Shown here: in pieces, positions 40,283 through 46,849 of the stretch
How the letters are laid out: every line of letters starts with the position of its first letter
Position numbering within the stretch: the first letter of the stretch is position 1
Origin: Syntrophomonadaceae bacterium
GTDB lineage: Bacteria; Bacillota; Syntrophomonadia; Syntrophomonadales; DTU052
DNA length: 46,849 nucleotides
Reading direction: 5' to 3'
NCBI GenBank assembly: GCA_012728655.1
Contig: JAAYEQ010000022.1
Location: 1-46,849, forward strand
Position numbers and translations under genes: made by a program
The notes under the pieces: model-generated
The model's database searches: none
What the model was told of the DNA's origin: nothing
What the model saw: only the letters and a program-made list of their open reading frames with translations

Positions 40283-41599
40283 TTGTCTGAGCTGGATATG
40301 ATGGTCATCCCGGAACATATCGAAGCAACCGGCGAATATGTAATCGCTACCTATTATCTGCAAACCGGACGCAACCTGGATATCGTAAAGAAGATAAGCT
40401 CCATCGCCATTGAACAAACCACCGGCACCTGGGTAGCCGTTCCCGAAGAAACCCCGGAAGTTCGGGAAAGACATGTGGCGAAAGTGGTGAGCATATATGA
40501 AGTCCCGGGGAATGAATACGAGGTGCCGGAGAGCCAGGATAAACGCCAGTGGGTGTTTCAATTGGCTTACCCGGCTGTGAACTTCGGCCCCCAAATCCCC
40601 ATGATGCTGTCGACCATAATCGGCAATATTTCGATGATAGGACCCCTGAAACTCTTGGATATTAAATTCCCTCCCGGTTTTCTGTCCCAGTTTAAAGGTC
40701 CCAAATTCGGGGTTGAAGGTGTGCGCCAGCTGCTGGGAGTATATGACCGACCGCTGTTGAACAATATGATTAAACCCTGCACCGGCTATACTCCCGAAGT
40801 CGGCTGCAAGCTGTTTACCCGGGCGGTTGAAGGCGGTGTGGATATTGTCAAGGACGACGAGTTGATCGCCGACCCTCCTTTCAATCCCATCGAGAAGAGA
40901 ATCAAGCTGTATATGGAGGCTGTTCGCAAGCACTACGAAGAAACCGGTCACCGGGTGTTGTATACCCCCAACATTACCGACGGAGCCTTGAAAGTGCTGG
41001 ATAATGCACGGCGGGCTATTGATGCCGGAGCCAATGCATTGATGATCAACTTCCTGACCGTAGGTATTTCCGCTTTGCAGGGTTTGGCGGAACACCCAGA
41101 TATTAATGTCCCGATAATGGCCCACCTGGATTTCGCCGGAACCATGTATGAATCACCTACATCCGGCATGAGCTCCCACCTTATTCTGGGCAAACTCGCA
41201 CGTTTGGCGGGGGCAGATATGGTAGTCTACCCCAGTCCTTACGGCAAGTTCCCCTTCCTGCGGGAACGTTACCTGCAGATAGGACATCACCTGAACAGCC
41301 CATGGTGTAATATCAACCAGGCTTTCCCCATGCCCGGCGGCGGGGTAATGCCCAACTGCGTTGAGGCCATTTATCGCGATCTGGGACCTGACTGCATTAT
41401 GGGAGCCGGGGGAGCAATTCACGGCCATCCTATGGGACCGGTAGCCGGAGCCAGAGCCATGCGCCAGGCGATAGACGCAGCCGTGGCCGGAATACCCATC
41501 GTGGAAGCAGCCAAAGAACACCCTGAACTGCAGGCGGCAATTGACGCCTGGGGACTCCTGGAAGACGAGGAAAGCAGACTTTTTGATATCAAAGAATAA
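40283..41599 (+). CDS. RuBisCO-like protein (form IV type), function unknown
   Basis: This 438-residue protein aligns along the RuBisCO large chain. Against R. rubrum form II numbering the metal site is kept: K190, D192 and E193 (K191, D193, E194). So are E44 (E48), N115 (N111), K164 (K166), H281 (H287), the loop-6 Lys K322 (K329) and the Gly-Gly at 376-377. The second active-site Lys is Cys (C166 for K168), R288 is Leu, S368 is Gly, and no His fits H321. So carboxylation of RuBP is unlikely; other family members are enolases, isomerases, decarboxylases or transcarboxylases. TTG start at 40283 with AAGGAGGAG upstream. It leads an operon with two PEP-hydrolase-like barrels. Confidence 0.85.
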   Translation: MSELDMMVIPEHIEATGEYVIATYYLQTGRNLDIVKKISSIAIEQTTGTWVAVPEETPEVRERHVAKVVSIYEVPGNEYEVPESQDKRQWVFQLAYPAVNFGPQIPMMLSTIIGNISMIGPLKLLDIKFPPGFLSQFKGPKFGVEGVRQLLGVYDRPLLNNMIKPCTGYTPEVGCKLFTRAVEGGVDIVKDDELIADPPFNPIEKRIKLYMEAVRKHYEETGHRVLYTPNITDGALKVLDNARRAIDAGANALMINFLTVGISALQGLAEHPDINVPIMAHLDFAGTMYESPTSGMSSHLILGKLARLAGADMVVYPSPYGKFPFLRERYLQIGHHLNSPWCNINQAFPMPGGGVMPNCVEAIYRDLGPDCIMGAGGAIHGHPMGPVAGARAMRQAIDAAVAGIPIVEAAKEHPELQAAIDAWGLLEDEESRLFDIKE

Positions 41600-41613
41600 A
41601 AGGAGGAATTGCT

Positions 41614-42462
41614 ATGGCCAAACAGTACACCCGCGATGAAGTCAAAGCCAGGTTACAAGCGGAAATTGCAAAAGGTAAACCGATCATCATTGCCGGGGCC
41701 GGAACCGGCATATCCGGCAAGTTTGCGGAACAGGGAGGAGTTGACCTGATCGGGGTCTACAACTCCGGGCTGTTCCGTATGGATGGTAAAGGTTCCCTGG
41801 CCGGGCTTATGCCTTATGGCGATGCCAATCAGATCGTCATCGATCTGGCACACCGAGTATTCCCGGTAATTAAGGAAACTCCCATGATTGCCGGTATATG
41901 CGGAACTGACCCCACCAGGGAGATGCGTCCCTACCTCCAGCACCTGCAGCATCTGGGTTTCTCAGCCGTTATGAACTTCCCTACCGTCGGTTTGATTGAC
42001 GGCCGTTTCCGCCAGGAACTGGAGGATACCGGTATGGGATACGCGGTGGAAATTGAGACCCTTAAAATCGCCAAGGAACAGGGTCTGTTCACCCTGGGGT
42101 ATGCTTTCAACGTGGACGAGGCCCGGATGGTCGGCGAAGCCCAACTTGACGTGCTGATATGCCACATGGGTCTGACCGCCGGCGGTTCCATCGGCTCCAA
42201 ATATGCGGAGGATAAGCTTACCCTAGAAAAATGTGCGGACTTGATTAACGAAATGACCCAGGCGGCCCGCAGTAAGTACAAGGATATCATGATCTTTGCC
42301 CATGGCGGACCGATAGCCTATCCTGAAGACACCCGCTACATTTATGAACACACGGAAGCAGTAGGCTTTTTGGGTGCGTCCAGTATTGAACGCATACCCA
42401 TCGAAGTACCGCTTAAGGAAGCCTGTCAGCAATTTAAGAATATCCCGCTCAAAAAGAAATAA
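41614..42462 (+). CDS. PEP-hydrolase-like TIM barrel (Tm-1 C-domain family), canonical copy
   Basis: This 282-residue protein of the family annotated 'phosphoenolpyruvate hydrolase' (PF09370) also forms the C-terminal half of the plant Tm-1 protein. It keeps the common segments: IIAGAGTGISGK, YNSGLFRMDGKGSLAG, ICGTDPTR, MNFPTVGLIDGRF, CHMGLTAGG and AHGGPI, with GASSIER near the end. It lies 14 bases after the RuBisCO-like gene, with AAAGGAGGAATT as SD. The reaction is unproven despite the family name. A terminator follows. Confidence 0.85.
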   Translation: MAKQYTRDEVKARLQAEIAKGKPIIIAGAGTGISGKFAEQGGVDLIGVYNSGLFRMDGKGSLAGLMPYGDANQIVIDLAHRVFPVIKETPMIAGICGTDPTREMRPYLQHLQHLGFSAVMNFPTVGLIDGRFRQELEDTGMGYAVEIETLKIAKEQGLFTLGYAFNVDEARMVGEAQLDVLICHMGLTAGGSIGSKYAEDKLTLEKCADLINEMTQAARSKYKDIMIFAHGGPIAYPEDTRYIYEHTEAVGFLGASSIERIPIEVPLKEACQQFKNIPLKKK

Positions 42463-42471
42463 GCGCCGTTT

Positions 42472-42505
42472 CTCCCTGTTGTCCGTCCGGACAACAGGGA
42501 GTTTT
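42472..42505 (+). terminator. terminator splitting the RuBisCO-like operon
   Basis: A 13-bp perfect stem (CTCCCTGTTGTCC with GGACAACAGGGAG) with a GTCC loop is followed by TTTTC. It should reduce, not necessarily abolish, read-through into comB. Confidence 0.8.
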
Positions 42506-42508
42506 CAA

Positions 42509-42601
42509 ATGCGAACAGTAACGGGAATGTCTGGTCACATCCTTGCCCGGTGCTCTGGTGAAACCGGTTTTAAATGCGAAAAAGAACTGGAATGTCGTTG
42601 A
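42509..42601 (+). CDS. possible 30-residue upstream ORF abutting comB
   Basis: It reads MRTVTGMSGHILARCSGETG and ends FKCEKELECR, with three cysteines. Its ATG is seven bases from GGGAG, which lies in the terminator's right arm. Its stop touches the comB ATG (TGAATG), and comB has only a weak SD of its own, so coupling is possible. The AAATGCGAA-to-GGAATGTC segment is repeated at 42507 and 42572. It may be non-coding. Confidence 0.25.
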   Translation: MRTVTGMSGHILARCSGETGFKCEKELECR

Positions 42602-43399
42602 ATGAGCAAGGTTATCGAGGTGGATACCGCCCTCTCAATAAGAGAATATGCTCCCGAAGCAGACAACACCGTCTGTCTGTTGATAGACGTGCTGCGGGCC
42701 AGCAGTACGATTGTGTCGTTCCTGGATAACGGCTGCCGTTGGGTTTATACCGTGGCCAAGGAGGAACTGGCCCGCCAGTTGGGTGCTCAGAGGCAGATGG
42801 TTACCAGCGGTGAATGGCAGGGACGGAAACTGCCTGGATTTGACATGGACAACTCACCGGCGGAAGCCGGAAGGTATCCGGTTAAAGGCCGGGATGTGGC
42901 CCTGTGCACCAGCAACGGCACGCGGGCGATAGACAAAGCCAAGGGGTGTGTCAGCCTGTTTATCGCCAGCCTCCTTAATGCCAGGGCCTGCGCCCGGGCC
43001 GGTTTGACCGCGGCCGAGGCTGCATCCTGCGGAATAACCATAGTATGTGCGGGGCAGTACGGCAAATTTGTGCTGGATGATGCATACTGCGCCGGATACC
43101 TCCTGCAAGAGCTGGAAGACCTGGCCCGGGATCGGGGAATTTCGCTCCGTATTTCGGATTCATCTCGAGCGGCCAAAGCTTTGCTCGCCGCCTACCCCGA
43201 TGCACGGGCCGCTTTTCTCGAATCCGCCAGCGGTCAGGTACTCCTGGCAGAGGGCGGAAGAGAAGATTTTGAGGTCTGCCTGCAGATAAACACCTCGCAA
43301 GTCGTTCCTCATATGCAGTTGGATAACGGTCTGATCCGATTTTCCAACTGGGAAGGCAAAAACATCAACCAATTGAGGAGGGAAAACCATGACGGTTAA
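42602..43399 (+). CDS. 2-phosphosulfolactate phosphatase homologue (ComB family)
   Basis: This 265-residue protein of the ComB family has the conserved LLIDVLRASST near 26, GFDMDNSPAE near 79, LCTSNGTRA near 101 and CAGQYGKFVLDDAYCAGYLL near 149. ComB dephosphorylates 2-phospho-3-sulfolactate in coenzyme M synthesis, but homologues occur widely in bacteria without CoM. Here no comA, comC, comD or comE is nearby. The gene overlaps the next by 11 bases, so a role on another phospho-acid from this operon is more likely. Confidence 0.82.
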   Translation: MSKVIEVDTALSIREYAPEADNTVCLLIDVLRASSTIVSFLDNGCRWVYTVAKEELARQLGAQRQMVTSGEWQGRKLPGFDMDNSPAEAGRYPVKGRDVALCTSNGTRAIDKAKGCVSLFIASLLNARACARAGLTAAEAASCGITIVCAGQYGKFVLDDAYCAGYLLQELEDLARDRGISLRISDSSRAAKALLAAYPDARAAFLESASGQVLLAEGGREDFEVCLQINTSQVVPHMQLDNGLIRFSNWEGKNINQLRRENHDG

Positions 43400-44738
43400 A
43401 GAGATACTGGTAACCGGGATCCTCGATACCAAAGGAGATGAGATCAAGTTCCTGGCCGAACGGGTCAAAGCAGCGGGCGGCAACCCCACCATTTTGGAGC
43501 TGAGCGTCGGTCGTGAAGTCGGATGGGCCGATATCGGCCTGAGCGAAGTGCTTACCCGGGTAGGAAAAAAACCGGGAGACATATTTGCCCTGGACCGCAA
43601 AGCCGCCTCCGACCTGGTGGCGGAAGGAGCCATCAGGCTGGTAAATGAAATGGTGGCCGCGGGCAAGGTGCACGGCATCATTGCCTACGGCGGCTCCATG
43701 GGAGCCAGTATTGCTACCCGGATAATGCAGACGCTGCCCATCGGATTCCCCAAGTTCATGCTCACCACCATGGCCTCCGGCGACGTCGCTCCCTATGTGG
43801 GCACCTCCGACATCTGCATGATATACCCCATTGCCGAGGCCGGCCTTAATAAGGTCACCCGGGGGATACTCAACAACGCCGCCGGAGCTGTGGTGGGAAT
43901 GGCCAACGCACCGGCCTTGAAAGGGATCGAGGAAAAACCGCTGATCGGCTGCATGATGTTCGGCGTCACCACCCCCTGTGTACTGCGGGCCTCCTCCATC
44001 ATGGAAAAGGCCGGTTACGACGTTATGATCAACCATGCGGTCGGCAGCGGAGGCCGCTCCATGGAGGACCTGATCCGAAACGGTTTTATCGCCGGGATGC
44101 TTGATATAACCACGCATGAAATCGCCGATGAAATGCTGGGCGGGGTGCTGAGTGCCGGTCCCGACCGCCTGACCGCCGCCGGGGATATGGGCATTCCCCA
44201 GGTAGTGGCTCCGGGCGGATTGGACCTGATTAACTTTGGTCCCAAGCATACCGTGCCGGAAAGGCTCTTAAAGGAGACCGACCAGCCCGGACGGGGTCTG
44301 TATGAGCATAATCCCACGGTAACCTGCATCGGGGTGTCCATGGATGAGGCCTACCGAATCGGCGAACACATGGCGGAAAAGCTCAATCGAGCCAAAGGCC
44401 CCAGTGTTCTGTGCGTGCCCATGCGGGGATGGGGCGCCTGCGATCTCGCGACCCCCGACATAAAACTGGGTTGGTCCGGACCCGGACCCGGACCGGTGTG
44501 GGCCCCCGATGAACAGAATCCCCAGTGGTCACGGCGTTCAGTGCGGTATGTAAAAGCTCTCCGGGACAAGATCGACCCCACCAAGGACAATCTGGAGGTT
44601 ATTGTGGTCGATCGGCACATGAATGAGCCCGAATTTGCCGATTTGCTGGCTGAACTGCTCCTGGAAATGCTCAACGGGACCTGGGTCAAAGGCAACAAAA
44701 AGGGCCGCCCGGACGTGATTCCTTTTGAGAACTTTTAG
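43389..44738 (+). CDS. Tm-1-like ATP-binding protein (UPF0261)
   Basis: This 449-residue UPF0261 protein matches the N-terminal half of tomato Tm-1. ILVTGILDTKGDEIKFLAERV opens it, with GIIAYGGSMGASIATRIM and GVTTPCVLRA inside and VPMRGWGACDLAT and a Gly-Pro repeat (PGPGPVWAPDEQNP) later. The plant domain binds ATP; the bacterial reaction is unknown. GGAGGGAAAACC lies before the ATG. It is coupled to comB and sits 15 bases before the second TIM barrel. In eukaryotes these two halves are one fused protein, which supports a shared pathway. Confidence 0.87.
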   Translation: MTVKEILVTGILDTKGDEIKFLAERVKAAGGNPTILELSVGREVGWADIGLSEVLTRVGKKPGDIFALDRKAASDLVAEGAIRLVNEMVAAGKVHGIIAYGGSMGASIATRIMQTLPIGFPKFMLTTMASGDVAPYVGTSDICMIYPIAEAGLNKVTRGILNNAAGAVVGMANAPALKGIEEKPLIGCMMFGVTTPCVLRASSIMEKAGYDVMINHAVGSGGRSMEDLIRNGFIAGMLDITTHEIADEMLGGVLSAGPDRLTAAGDMGIPQVVAPGGLDLINFGPKHTVPERLLKETDQPGRGLYEHNPTVTCIGVSMDEAYRIGEHMAEKLNRAKGPSVLCVPMRGWGACDLATPDIKLGWSGPGPGPVWAPDEQNPQWSRRSVRYVKALRDKIDPTKDNLEVIVVDRHMNEPEFADLLAELLLEMLNGTWVKGNKKGRPDVIPFENF

Positions 44739-44753
44739 CTCGGAGGTTCATCT

Positions 44754-45587
44754 ATGGCGGTACAGTATAAGCGGAGTGAAATAATCGCCAGGCTTAGGGA
44801 GCAGGTCAACAACAACCGGGCCATCTTGATGTTCGGAGCCGGAACCGGCTTAACCGCCAAGTGCGCCGACCTGGGCGGAGCCGACCTGGTGGCCGTCTAT
44901 TCTACAGCCATATGGCGCATGATGGGGCTCCCCACCCTCCTGGCCTGGATGCCGTACGAAGACTGCAATGCCCGGGTTAAAGCGATGGCCAGGGAAATAC
45001 TCCCGGTGGTCAAAACTGCACCCTGCATCGCCGGTATCGGGGCTCACAACCCGGCCATAAACCTGGAGCGGATCATCGATGAAATGATGGAACTGGGCTT
45101 TTCCGGCATCACCAACGAGCCCTTTGCCGGGCTTTATGGGGAATACTTTGCCCGGCAGCTTGAAAGTGCGGGGATCGGCTTTTCCCGCGAGGTTGAGCTT
45201 ATAAAAACCGCACACAAAAAGGATATCTTCACCGTAGCCTGGGCGTTTAACGAAGGCGAGGCCCGAACCATGGCCGAGGCGGGTGCCGATGTTATCGGAG
45301 CCATCGTCGGAGTAACCGGCGGCGGTCTAACCGGCGCCAAAGAGGTCATGACCCTGGAGGAAGCCACCGCCGAGGTGCAGAAAATGTGCCTGGCTGCTCG
45401 CTCGGTAAACCCCGATGTGTTCGTGCTGACACATGGCGGGCCCTTTGCGGACGTGGAAACAGCACAGTACTCCGTCGCCAACTCCGATGCCGACGGCTAT
45501 GCTTCCGGCTCCAGCGGAGAGCGGACACCAACTGAGAATGCCGTAATTGCGATAACCAGAGAGTATAAGGCAATAAAGGTGAAATAG
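44754..45587 (+). CDS. PEP-hydrolase-like TIM barrel (Tm-1 C-domain family), divergent copy
   Basis: This 277-residue paralogue of the protein at 41614 is collinear with it residue for residue over most of its length. It keeps FGAGTGLTAK, AGADV and THGGPF. The segments that are conserved in the other copy are changed: CGTDP to GAHNP (96-100), NFPTVGLIDG to NEPFAGLYGE, the His in CHMGLT to Ile (184), and GASSIER to GSSGERT. It may bind a different ligand or form a mixed complex. CTCGGAGGTTC precedes the ATG. It is the last gene before the intron. Confidence 0.82.
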   Translation: MAVQYKRSEIIARLREQVNNNRAILMFGAGTGLTAKCADLGGADLVAVYSTAIWRMMGLPTLLAWMPYEDCNARVKAMAREILPVVKTAPCIAGIGAHNPAINLERIIDEMMELGFSGITNEPFAGLYGEYFARQLESAGIGFSREVELIKTAHKKDIFTVAWAFNEGEARTMAEAGADVIGAIVGVTGGGLTGAKEVMTLEEATAEVQKMCLAARSVNPDVFVLTHGGPFADVETAQYSVANSDADGYASGSSGERTPTENAVIAITREYKAIKVK

Positions 45588-45640
45588 GTCTCGAATACAC
45601 CAATCGAGTAGGAGGGGGCGGCTAACCCCCGTCCTCTCAC

Positions 45641-45674
45641 ACCACCGTACGTACCGTTCGGTATACGGCGGTTC
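45641..45674 (-). ncRNA. group II intron domain V
   Basis: This 34-base catalytic hairpin has stem ACCGCCGTA/TACGGTGGT with a G-U pair, a two-base bulge region, and a TACC-GAAC-GGTA tip. The CGC in the 5' strand corresponds to the catalytic triad of class C introns (AGC in most others). Confidence 0.85.
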
Positions 45675-46849
45675 ACGCTGCGGAACGAAGTTGGTCATAG
45701 CGCTCGGTTAAACTCCTAAGCCCTTTGTCGCGCCAAAAGGCGAGGCCGAGGGCTTTATTTACCTGTGGGGTATTTGACAGACGCCAGTACCCTTTGCGCG
45801 ACCCGCTGATTAGTGCCGCCCATTCCGGAGGAATACCCAGGGCAACCAGGCGTCGCTTCCTTGTCTTGGGCTTCTTCCACTGCTTGAGGTAGCACATACG
45901 TAGTCTGCGGCGTATCCATTCGTCAAGTGCTTGGATATTGCTTCGGGTATCGGCGAGTTGGAAGTATCCTATCCATCCCACCATATAGGTGTTTAGAAGC
46001 TCAATCCTATTTTCCATGGATTTGCCGTCGCTACGTCTGGTCAGTTGGCGGATTTTGTCCTTAAAACGCTTGATGGTCTCTGACGCTAGCCTGATTCTTG
46101 GTTCCCTGTTGTGAGTAAAGGAAAATCCAAGAAACTTTCGCTTCCACGGGCGGTCAACAGCGCTTTTCTGTATGTTGACCTTGAGTTTTAACCTACCCTC
46201 TACAAATCTCTGAACGCTTGCCATTACCCGTTCTCCCGCTCTCCGGCTCTTTACGTAGATGTTGCAGTCATCAGCGTATCTTACGTACTTGTGCCCGCGG
46301 CGCAGCAACTCCCAGTCCAGTTCGTCCAGCATTATGTTCGCCAGAAGGGGGCTTAACGGCCCACCCTGCGGGGTGCCTTCTTCGGATCTTACCTTTACAC
46401 CGTTTATCATTATTCCGGCTTGAAGGTAGCGTCTAATCAGGCGTAGGATACGTTTGTCGGAGATTCTTCGGGCTAAACGTGACATTAGGATGTCGTGGTT
46501 GACTTTGTCGAAGAACTTCTCCAAGTCGATATCCACTACCCACCGGTTTCCTTCCTGGATGTATTGCCGGGCCTTCTTTACGGCCATATGGGCTTTGCGT
46601 CCAGGCCGAAAACCGTAGCTGAAAGGGGAGAACGTTGGGTCATAGTAGGGACTCAGCACTTGTAGGAGGGCCTGTTGAATCAGGCGGTCGAGCACCGTCG
46701 GAATACCCAACAGCCGAACTCCACCGCCGGGTTTCGGGATTTCGACTCGACGTACGGGTTGGGGCTGGTAGGTTCCGTTAAGGAGTTCATCCTTAATCCG
46801 GGGCCAGTGTTCGACGAGAAATGGCCGCAGGTCTTTTGTGGTCATTCCG
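45673..46849 (-). CDS. ltrA: group II intron reverse transcriptase/maturase, 5'-truncated by the window
   Basis: 390 residues are visible from a Met at the right edge; the frame remains open there, and LtrA-type proteins start further upstream. RT blocks include RRVEIPKPGGGVRLLGIPT, SYGFRPGRKAH, DIDLEKFFD, GTPQGGPLSPLL and YADD in RYADDCN. The maturase (X) domain is at GWIGYFQLADTR and onward. No HNH endonuclease domain follows, consistent with a class C or ORF-less-endonuclease type. It stops at 45673, overlapping the start of domain V. Confidence 0.93.
   Translation of the reverse strand, partial: GMTTKDLRPFLVEHWPRIKDELLNGTYQPQPVRRVEIPKPGGGVRLLGIPTVLDRLIQQALLQVLSPYYDPTFSPFSYGFRPGRKAHMAVKKARQYIQEGNRWVVDIDLEKFFDKVNHDILMSRLARRISDKRILRLIRRYLQAGIMINGVKVRSEEGTPQGGPLSPLLANIMLDELDWELLRRGHKYVRYADDCNIYVKSRRAGERVMASVQRFVEGRLKLKVNIQKSAVDRPWKRKFLGFSFTHNREPRIRLASETIKRFKDKIRQLTRRSDGKSMENRIELLNTYMVGWIGYFQLADTRSNIQALDEWIRRRLRMCYLKQWKKPKTRKRRLVALGIPPEWAALISGSRKGYWRLSNTPQVNKALGLAFWRDKGLRSLTERYDQLRSAA

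Follow-up and report, generated by a model that had tools for sequence, protein, structure and literature searches.

Few reactions are known for RuBisCO-like proteins (RLPs). In the apionate pathway the RLP decarboxylase OiaX works together with a kinase, OiaK, which belongs to DUF1537, and DUF1537 kinases are the ones used in threonate/apionate-type pathways. Two further families, UPF0261 and PF09370, are widespread and largely uncharacterised, and plants have fused them into Tm-1. In our literature search we found no characterised PF09370 enzyme and no biochemical study of UPF0261 function, also not under the term 'Tm-1-like ATP-binding'. Likewise, nothing was found on an RLP together with Tm-1 or a PEP hydrolase, and the chemistry of a module combining them is not described in the literature searched.

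Such a module is present in the window, a stretch of 46,849 nt from an anaerobic Syntrophomonadaceae bacterium, as a cassette of five genes on the + strand at 40283-45587 (Table 1). From 5' to 3' they are spaced by 14 nt, 139 nt, an 11-nt overlap and 15 nt, and good Shine-Dalgarno sequences precede the RLP, P1, U and P2, not ComB. A preliminary description had reported five genes in one direction with gaps of 14-15 bases or overlaps except for one 139-base gap, which the ORF coordinates confirm. Its family calls held in Pfam for the RLP, the two PF09370 barrels (cut-off 33.8 bits) and ComB (cut-off 26.4 bits); the RLP is placed in the RuBisCO superfamily by PF00016, PF02788 and its carbamate/Mg ligand residues. 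The fourth gene had been described as a UPF0261/Tm-1 N-domain protein. It encodes more than that, a complete two-domain UPF0261 protein, whose fold matched 9mpy and Tm-1.

Table 1 Features of the cassette with their positions in the window.
Feature	Position	Strand	Evidence
RuBisCO-like protein (RLP), KPCTG clade, 438 aa, TTG start	40283..41599	+	PF00016 178 bits, PF02788
P1, PF09370 'PEP hydrolase-like' TIM barrel, 282 aa	41614..42462	+	PF09370 367 bits; 2p10 E=1.6e-85; clade; fold search
13-bp hairpin and short T-rich tail, between P1 and ComB	42472..42501	+	paired changes in related loci; fold z
ComB-family (2-phosphosulfolactate phosphatase-like) phosphatase, 265 aa	42602..43399	+	PF04029 198 bits
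U, UPF0261/Tm-1-like, probable small-molecule kinase, 449 aa	43389..44738	+	PF06792+PF23189; matches to 9mpy, Tm-1; clade; insertion
P2, second PF09370 barrel, divergent paralogue, 277 aa	44754..45587	+	PF09370 313 bits; own clade in RLP operons

Around 15 bases past P2 lies a group II intron on the - strand (45603-46849), with its Rfam domain at 45603-45673 and a reverse transcriptase/maturase that runs from 45673 to the contig end, where it is cut. The intron is outside the cassette and is the sole Rfam match; no RNA element was found by Rfam 5' of the RLP. Within the window the block has no transporter, dehydrogenase or regulator of its own, and its substrate could thus be an internal one. 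At other loci, regulators do accompany the RLP operon: SorC is found 5' of it at L058, L064-L067, L073 and L075, DeoR close by at L109 and L178, and a GlpP-type antiterminator 5' of it at L049, L180 and L182 (by Pfam) and at L052, L053, L055 and L056 (by cluster). None of the three types stands beside the window copy.

The gap between P1 and ComB, with a fold z of -2.6 over its whole length, holds a perfect hairpin that close relatives keep with compensatory changes. Seven sequences from related loci, picked because they fold and with pairs counted from the loop as anchor, show changes on both sides in 11 of the 13 pairs, and 88 of 91 cells are paired; a MAFFT alignment shifted the hairpin register. 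Loci L044, L049, L053 and L054 have no such hairpin. It may be an attenuator or a stabiliser of the RNA end, and it suggests that RLP-P1 and ComB-U-P2 are expressed unequally.

Do these genes belong together beyond this one genome? In a sample of 61 genomes from the order, 15 carry an RLP at ≥50% identity; UPF0261 and PF09370 occur in all 15 and ComB in 13. ComB is single copy and is restricted to RLP carriers, being found in 0 of the 46 RLP-less genomes. Both associations are strong across the 61 relatives, with a 15/0/2/44 table for RLP and UPF0261 (Fisher p ~2e-12) and a 13/2/0/46 table for RLP and ComB (p ~2e-11); counted by genus, the values are p ~2e-5 and ~3e-6. In a 398-genome sample of the phylum the co-occurrence reaches p ~1.5e-4 after leaving aside the window's order, and UPF0261 adjoins the RLP in 18 of the 38 RLP carriers, some of these RLPs being just 41-46% identical. 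A wider scan of the genomes of 84,980 species, seeded with the window's clade and thus over-sampling close kin, kept 80 loci. Within 9 kb of the RLP, 31 loci, counting the window, have both UPF0261 and PF09370, 18 of them together with ComB; two further loci are cut by contig ends. Among the carriers are Syntrophomonadaceae-type genomes, Thermoanaerobacterales, Ca. Formimonas warabiya, Desulfoscipio, Oscillospiraceae and Clostridia MAGs, and variant layouts occur in Caldisericota (L058) and Petroclostridium X23 (L109). Genes flanking the cassette vary between genera.

The block is therefore a conserved cassette, met again in more than one Bacillota family and in surroundings that change. The neighbourhood search that had been proposed as a check thus finds it beyond close relatives, and the notion of a single module is borne out by co-occurrence, by recurrence across unlike flanks and taxa, and by the dedicated subfamilies described below. 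At L057 (G031 C3:297947-299237) the RLP is split by a frameshift or stops while the other cassette genes are intact, which is either decay or an assembly error.

In RuBisCO numbering the RLP keeps K175, K201, D203, E204 and H294, and with them the carbamate/Mg site. K177 is changed to C, giving the KPCTG motif, and R295 to L; the KPC motif is found throughout the wider RLP clade. With these two replacements the protein should not fix CO2; its residues fit Mg-enolate chemistry with some ligand that is not RuBP. A form III-like, true RuBisCO serving nucleotide salvage would share the carbamate lysine and the Mg ligands, but the active-site loss at K177 and R295 speaks against this function. The score lies far under the RuBisCO NCBIfam cut-offs and AMP-pathway genes are absent from the block, so that we assign this reading a negligible probability.

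The RLP tree places the window within a clade of 21 (100/100), in which PF09370 adjoins the RLP in 21/21 cases, and sets the Bacillus/Geobacillus MtnW pair apart; RLPs linked to UPF0261 are not confined to this clade, others falling in a second one or on isolated branches. A role in methionine salvage or 5'-deoxyadenosine disposal would have the RLP act on 5-methylthioribulose-1-P or DK-MTP-1P. DK-MTP-1P enolases are indeed the nearest solved relatives, and MtnA is present in the genome. However, a MTAP-MtnA-class II aldolase-deaminase cluster lies on another contig (C73) and likewise in the RLP-less family mate G004, so the RLP is not needed for methionine salvage, and 57 of the 61 genomes have MtnA irrespective of the RLP. 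Both MtnW NCBIfam cut-offs are missed (400.9 vs 409; 351.9 vs 513.6). In contrast to B. velezensis, cupin, MtnB, MtnX and MtnD were not found beside the RLP; a cupin methylsulfurylase of the DeepYkr/MTA-isoprenoid shunt is absent from the window block, and none was recognised at the related loci examined. Methionine salvage was accordingly rejected as the main reading, given a cluster that sits elsewhere and occurs without the RLP too, and as a role for the RLP it is quite unlikely.

The wider clade has other surroundings. At L098 and ~20 deltaproteobacterial loci the RLP stands without UPF0261, and its neighbours are an FGGY kinase and a class III aminotransferase of GSAM-like type; no pathway is known for this RLP neighbourhood either. 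In Bacillota (L084, L085, L092, L113, L183-L186) RLPs are found with a galactitol-type PTS, a SorC regulator and a class II aldolase, and also with a 2-hydroxyacid or Zn dehydrogenase, perhaps as a PTS-fed RLP pathway. Both are sugar- or polyol-phosphate settings.

The UPF0261 proteins of the 31 RLP+PF09370 operons form one clade (100/100) and share a private insertion of ~25 residues, GW..GP..GP.W..WS.R, which is absent from the other 26 rows compared. Three more RLP-linked UPF0261 proteins (L175-L177) fall outside this clade and group with those beside class II aldolases in Thermus and G073, so RLP and UPF0261 were joined at least twice. A fold search with U returned 9mpy as the best solved match: this is Saro_1862 of Novosphingobium aromaticivorans with acetovanillone bound, the only solved bacterial member of UPF0261. 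Acetovanillone breakdown in this species begins with the one-component kinase MarK, according to PMC13101465. We infer that Saro_1862 is MarK, and since 9mpy binds the very compound whose breakdown starts with this kinase, UPF0261 is probably an ATP-dependent kinase family. This assignment is the most useful new proposal of the analysis. The preliminary description had counted three enzyme-like families without a settled reaction, and for UPF0261 9mpy and the MarK literature now give a clue to it.

Taken literally, the match might suggest aromatic catabolism, with U phosphorylating an aryl ketone or phenol as Saro_1862/MarK does. Acetovanillone in the 9mpy structure and the UPF0261 genes near PEP-synthase-like genes at L203 and L204 agree with this, but the cassette has no recurring carboxylase or other aromatic gene beside it, its neighbours being sugar-phosphate enzymes and regulators, and we consider the idea highly improbable. 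L203 and L204 also have neighbours that by eye are UbiD/UbiX-like or carboxyltransferase-like, and they perhaps represent a phosphorylate-then-carboxylate route. At L200 (G265) two near-identical UPF0261 genes stand in tandem.

Operon layouts point independently to a kinase role of U. Operons in Thermus (L119) and G073 (L199) combine ADH, an AP2 isomerase, UPF0261 and a class II aldolase, while a further RLP branch with a separately joined UPF0261 (G381/G402) has lactonase, UPF0261, RLP, class II aldolase, RpiB and TpiA; no other sugar kinase was recognised in the G381/G402 loci. By layout alone, UPF0261 stands where threonate/apionate-type pathways have their DUF1537 kinase. Homology between the two was not seen: the 50 fold matches listed include no structure from DUF1537, and U has no DUF1537 domain.

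A branched-carbon substrate had also been considered, and the lactonase/RpiB/TpiA context of these distant relatives does bring the chemistry of apionate and erythrulose to mind. An apionate-type route would lead from a sugar lactone to the acid, followed by phosphorylation, RLP decarboxylation to L-erythrulose-1-P and TpiA/RpiB-like isomerases, with UPF0261 replacing OiaK and the RLP doing the job of OiaX. The G381/G402 operons fit this sequence, as do G174 and Petroclostridium, which combine TpiA, RpiB, PF09370, UPF0261, amidohydrolase_2 and RLP. Against it, the window RLP scores 209 vs a cut-off of 700 for the OiaX NCBIfam equivalog, it has lost R295, which OiaX-like references keep, and the window block is without RpiB/TpiA and lactonase. 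For the window we therefore regard this route as rather unlikely.

Linkage of UPF0261 and PF09370 is seen across bacteria, in keeping with the association of Tm-1 halves that had been suggested. In RLP operons P1 and P2 each make up a clade of their own, distinct from the barrels that canonically partner UPF0261; the variant loci L058, L109 and L178 branch deep in the barrel tree. Of the two, P1 is closer to the usual partner barrel, and the CH(M/x)G motif of P1 is missing in P2, which with its motifs lost may be non-catalytic. Beside UPF0261-PF09370 pairs at two other loci, PF09370 is fused to a sigma-54 activator or AraC domain (L195:7954-9762, L196:6207-7547), where the barrel is perhaps used as a sensor.

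ComB is the least conserved gene, with 36-43% identity outside close kin, and is missing at L047/L064-L075; it is optional in the cassette. Its family name might hint to sulfonates, with 2-phosphosulfolactate as the substrate of ComB, like in the biosynthesis of coenzyme M, and with the RLP and barrels acting on sulfolactate-like acids. Family membership and the presence of ComB among relatives only together with the RLP speak for such a route. Its score, though, is under every 2-phosphosulfolactate phosphatase equivalog cut-off in NCBIfam (TIGR00298, 128 vs 175), the gene is poorly conserved and missing at the loci just named, and the block has no other CoM or sulfonate genes, which leaves this route very doubtful. 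Nothing was found in support of a sulfur-containing substrate, as had been considered.

Starting from what is observed directly, namely the genes, their co-occurrence, the dedicated subfamilies and the active-site residues, the following pathway can be proposed. U, whose role as kinase is well supported, would phosphorylate the substrate with ATP as donor. The RLP, with its carbamylated lysine, Mg2+ and K175, would then enolise the phosphorylated compound, as its superfamily suggests, and isomerise or decarboxylate it. P1/P2, TIM barrels whose fold is akin to that of PEP mutase/isocitrate lyase and TIM, might cleave the RLP product, and the dispensable ComB might take the phosphate off a 2-phospho-hydroxyacid product. 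The order of steps is the one we infer; what P1, P2 and ComB do is assigned only tentatively. The chances are about even that the block is a self-contained cytosolic cassette which phosphorylates, rearranges or decarboxylates, cleaves and dephosphorylates a small compound of hydroxy/keto type, with a phospho-compound of the sugar-acid or polyol kind as the most likely candidate. The SorC, DeoR and GlpP-type regulators of related operons are in line with this. The earlier suggestion, catabolism of a small (phospho)acid, is supported to the extent that the module probably breaks down some small phosphorylated compound, unrelated to methionine salvage.

A bolder version, possible though short of an even chance, is a new pathway centred on the RLP, with UPF0261 as its substrate kinase and with P1/P2 as founders of a class of C-C lyases for phospho-acids that is itself new. 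If true, plant Tm-1 would combine such a kinase and lyase in one fused protein with the same chemistry, so that a virus-resistance protein would gain an enzymatic basis and the RLPs a new reaction. One RLP clade with dedicated UPF0261 and PF09370 subfamilies is a small testable system for such a reaction, and also for the partner barrel of the UPF0261 kinase and the ancestral chemistry of Tm-1.

How does the cassette relate to the known systems? Among solved structures, the DK-MTP-1P enolase MtnW (YkrW-type RLP; 2oek, 2oej) comes nearest to the RLP (325 bits), with the same carbamate/Mg site and an enolase chemistry, but the window RLP is under the family cut-offs, carries KPCTG, has other neighbours and stands apart in the tree. 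Saro_1862 shares family, fold and ~32% identity over most of the chain with U, whereas it lacks the insertion, as judged from its length, acts in an aromatic pathway and has no RLP. The OiaK-OiaX apionate and L-threonate pathways follow a similar logic of kinase plus decarboxylase/isomerase; they use a DUF1537 kinase where UPF0261 is found here, and the window RLP is not OiaX by score. Mll9387 (2p10) is a PF09370 protein like P1 and P2, 48% identical to P1 in the structural alignment, yet belongs to the canonical UPF0261-partner clade. Plant Tm-1/Tm-1L are fused, linked to virus resistance and without an RLP partner, but their two halves, UPF0261 and PF09370, correspond to the U- and P-type proteins of the cassette.
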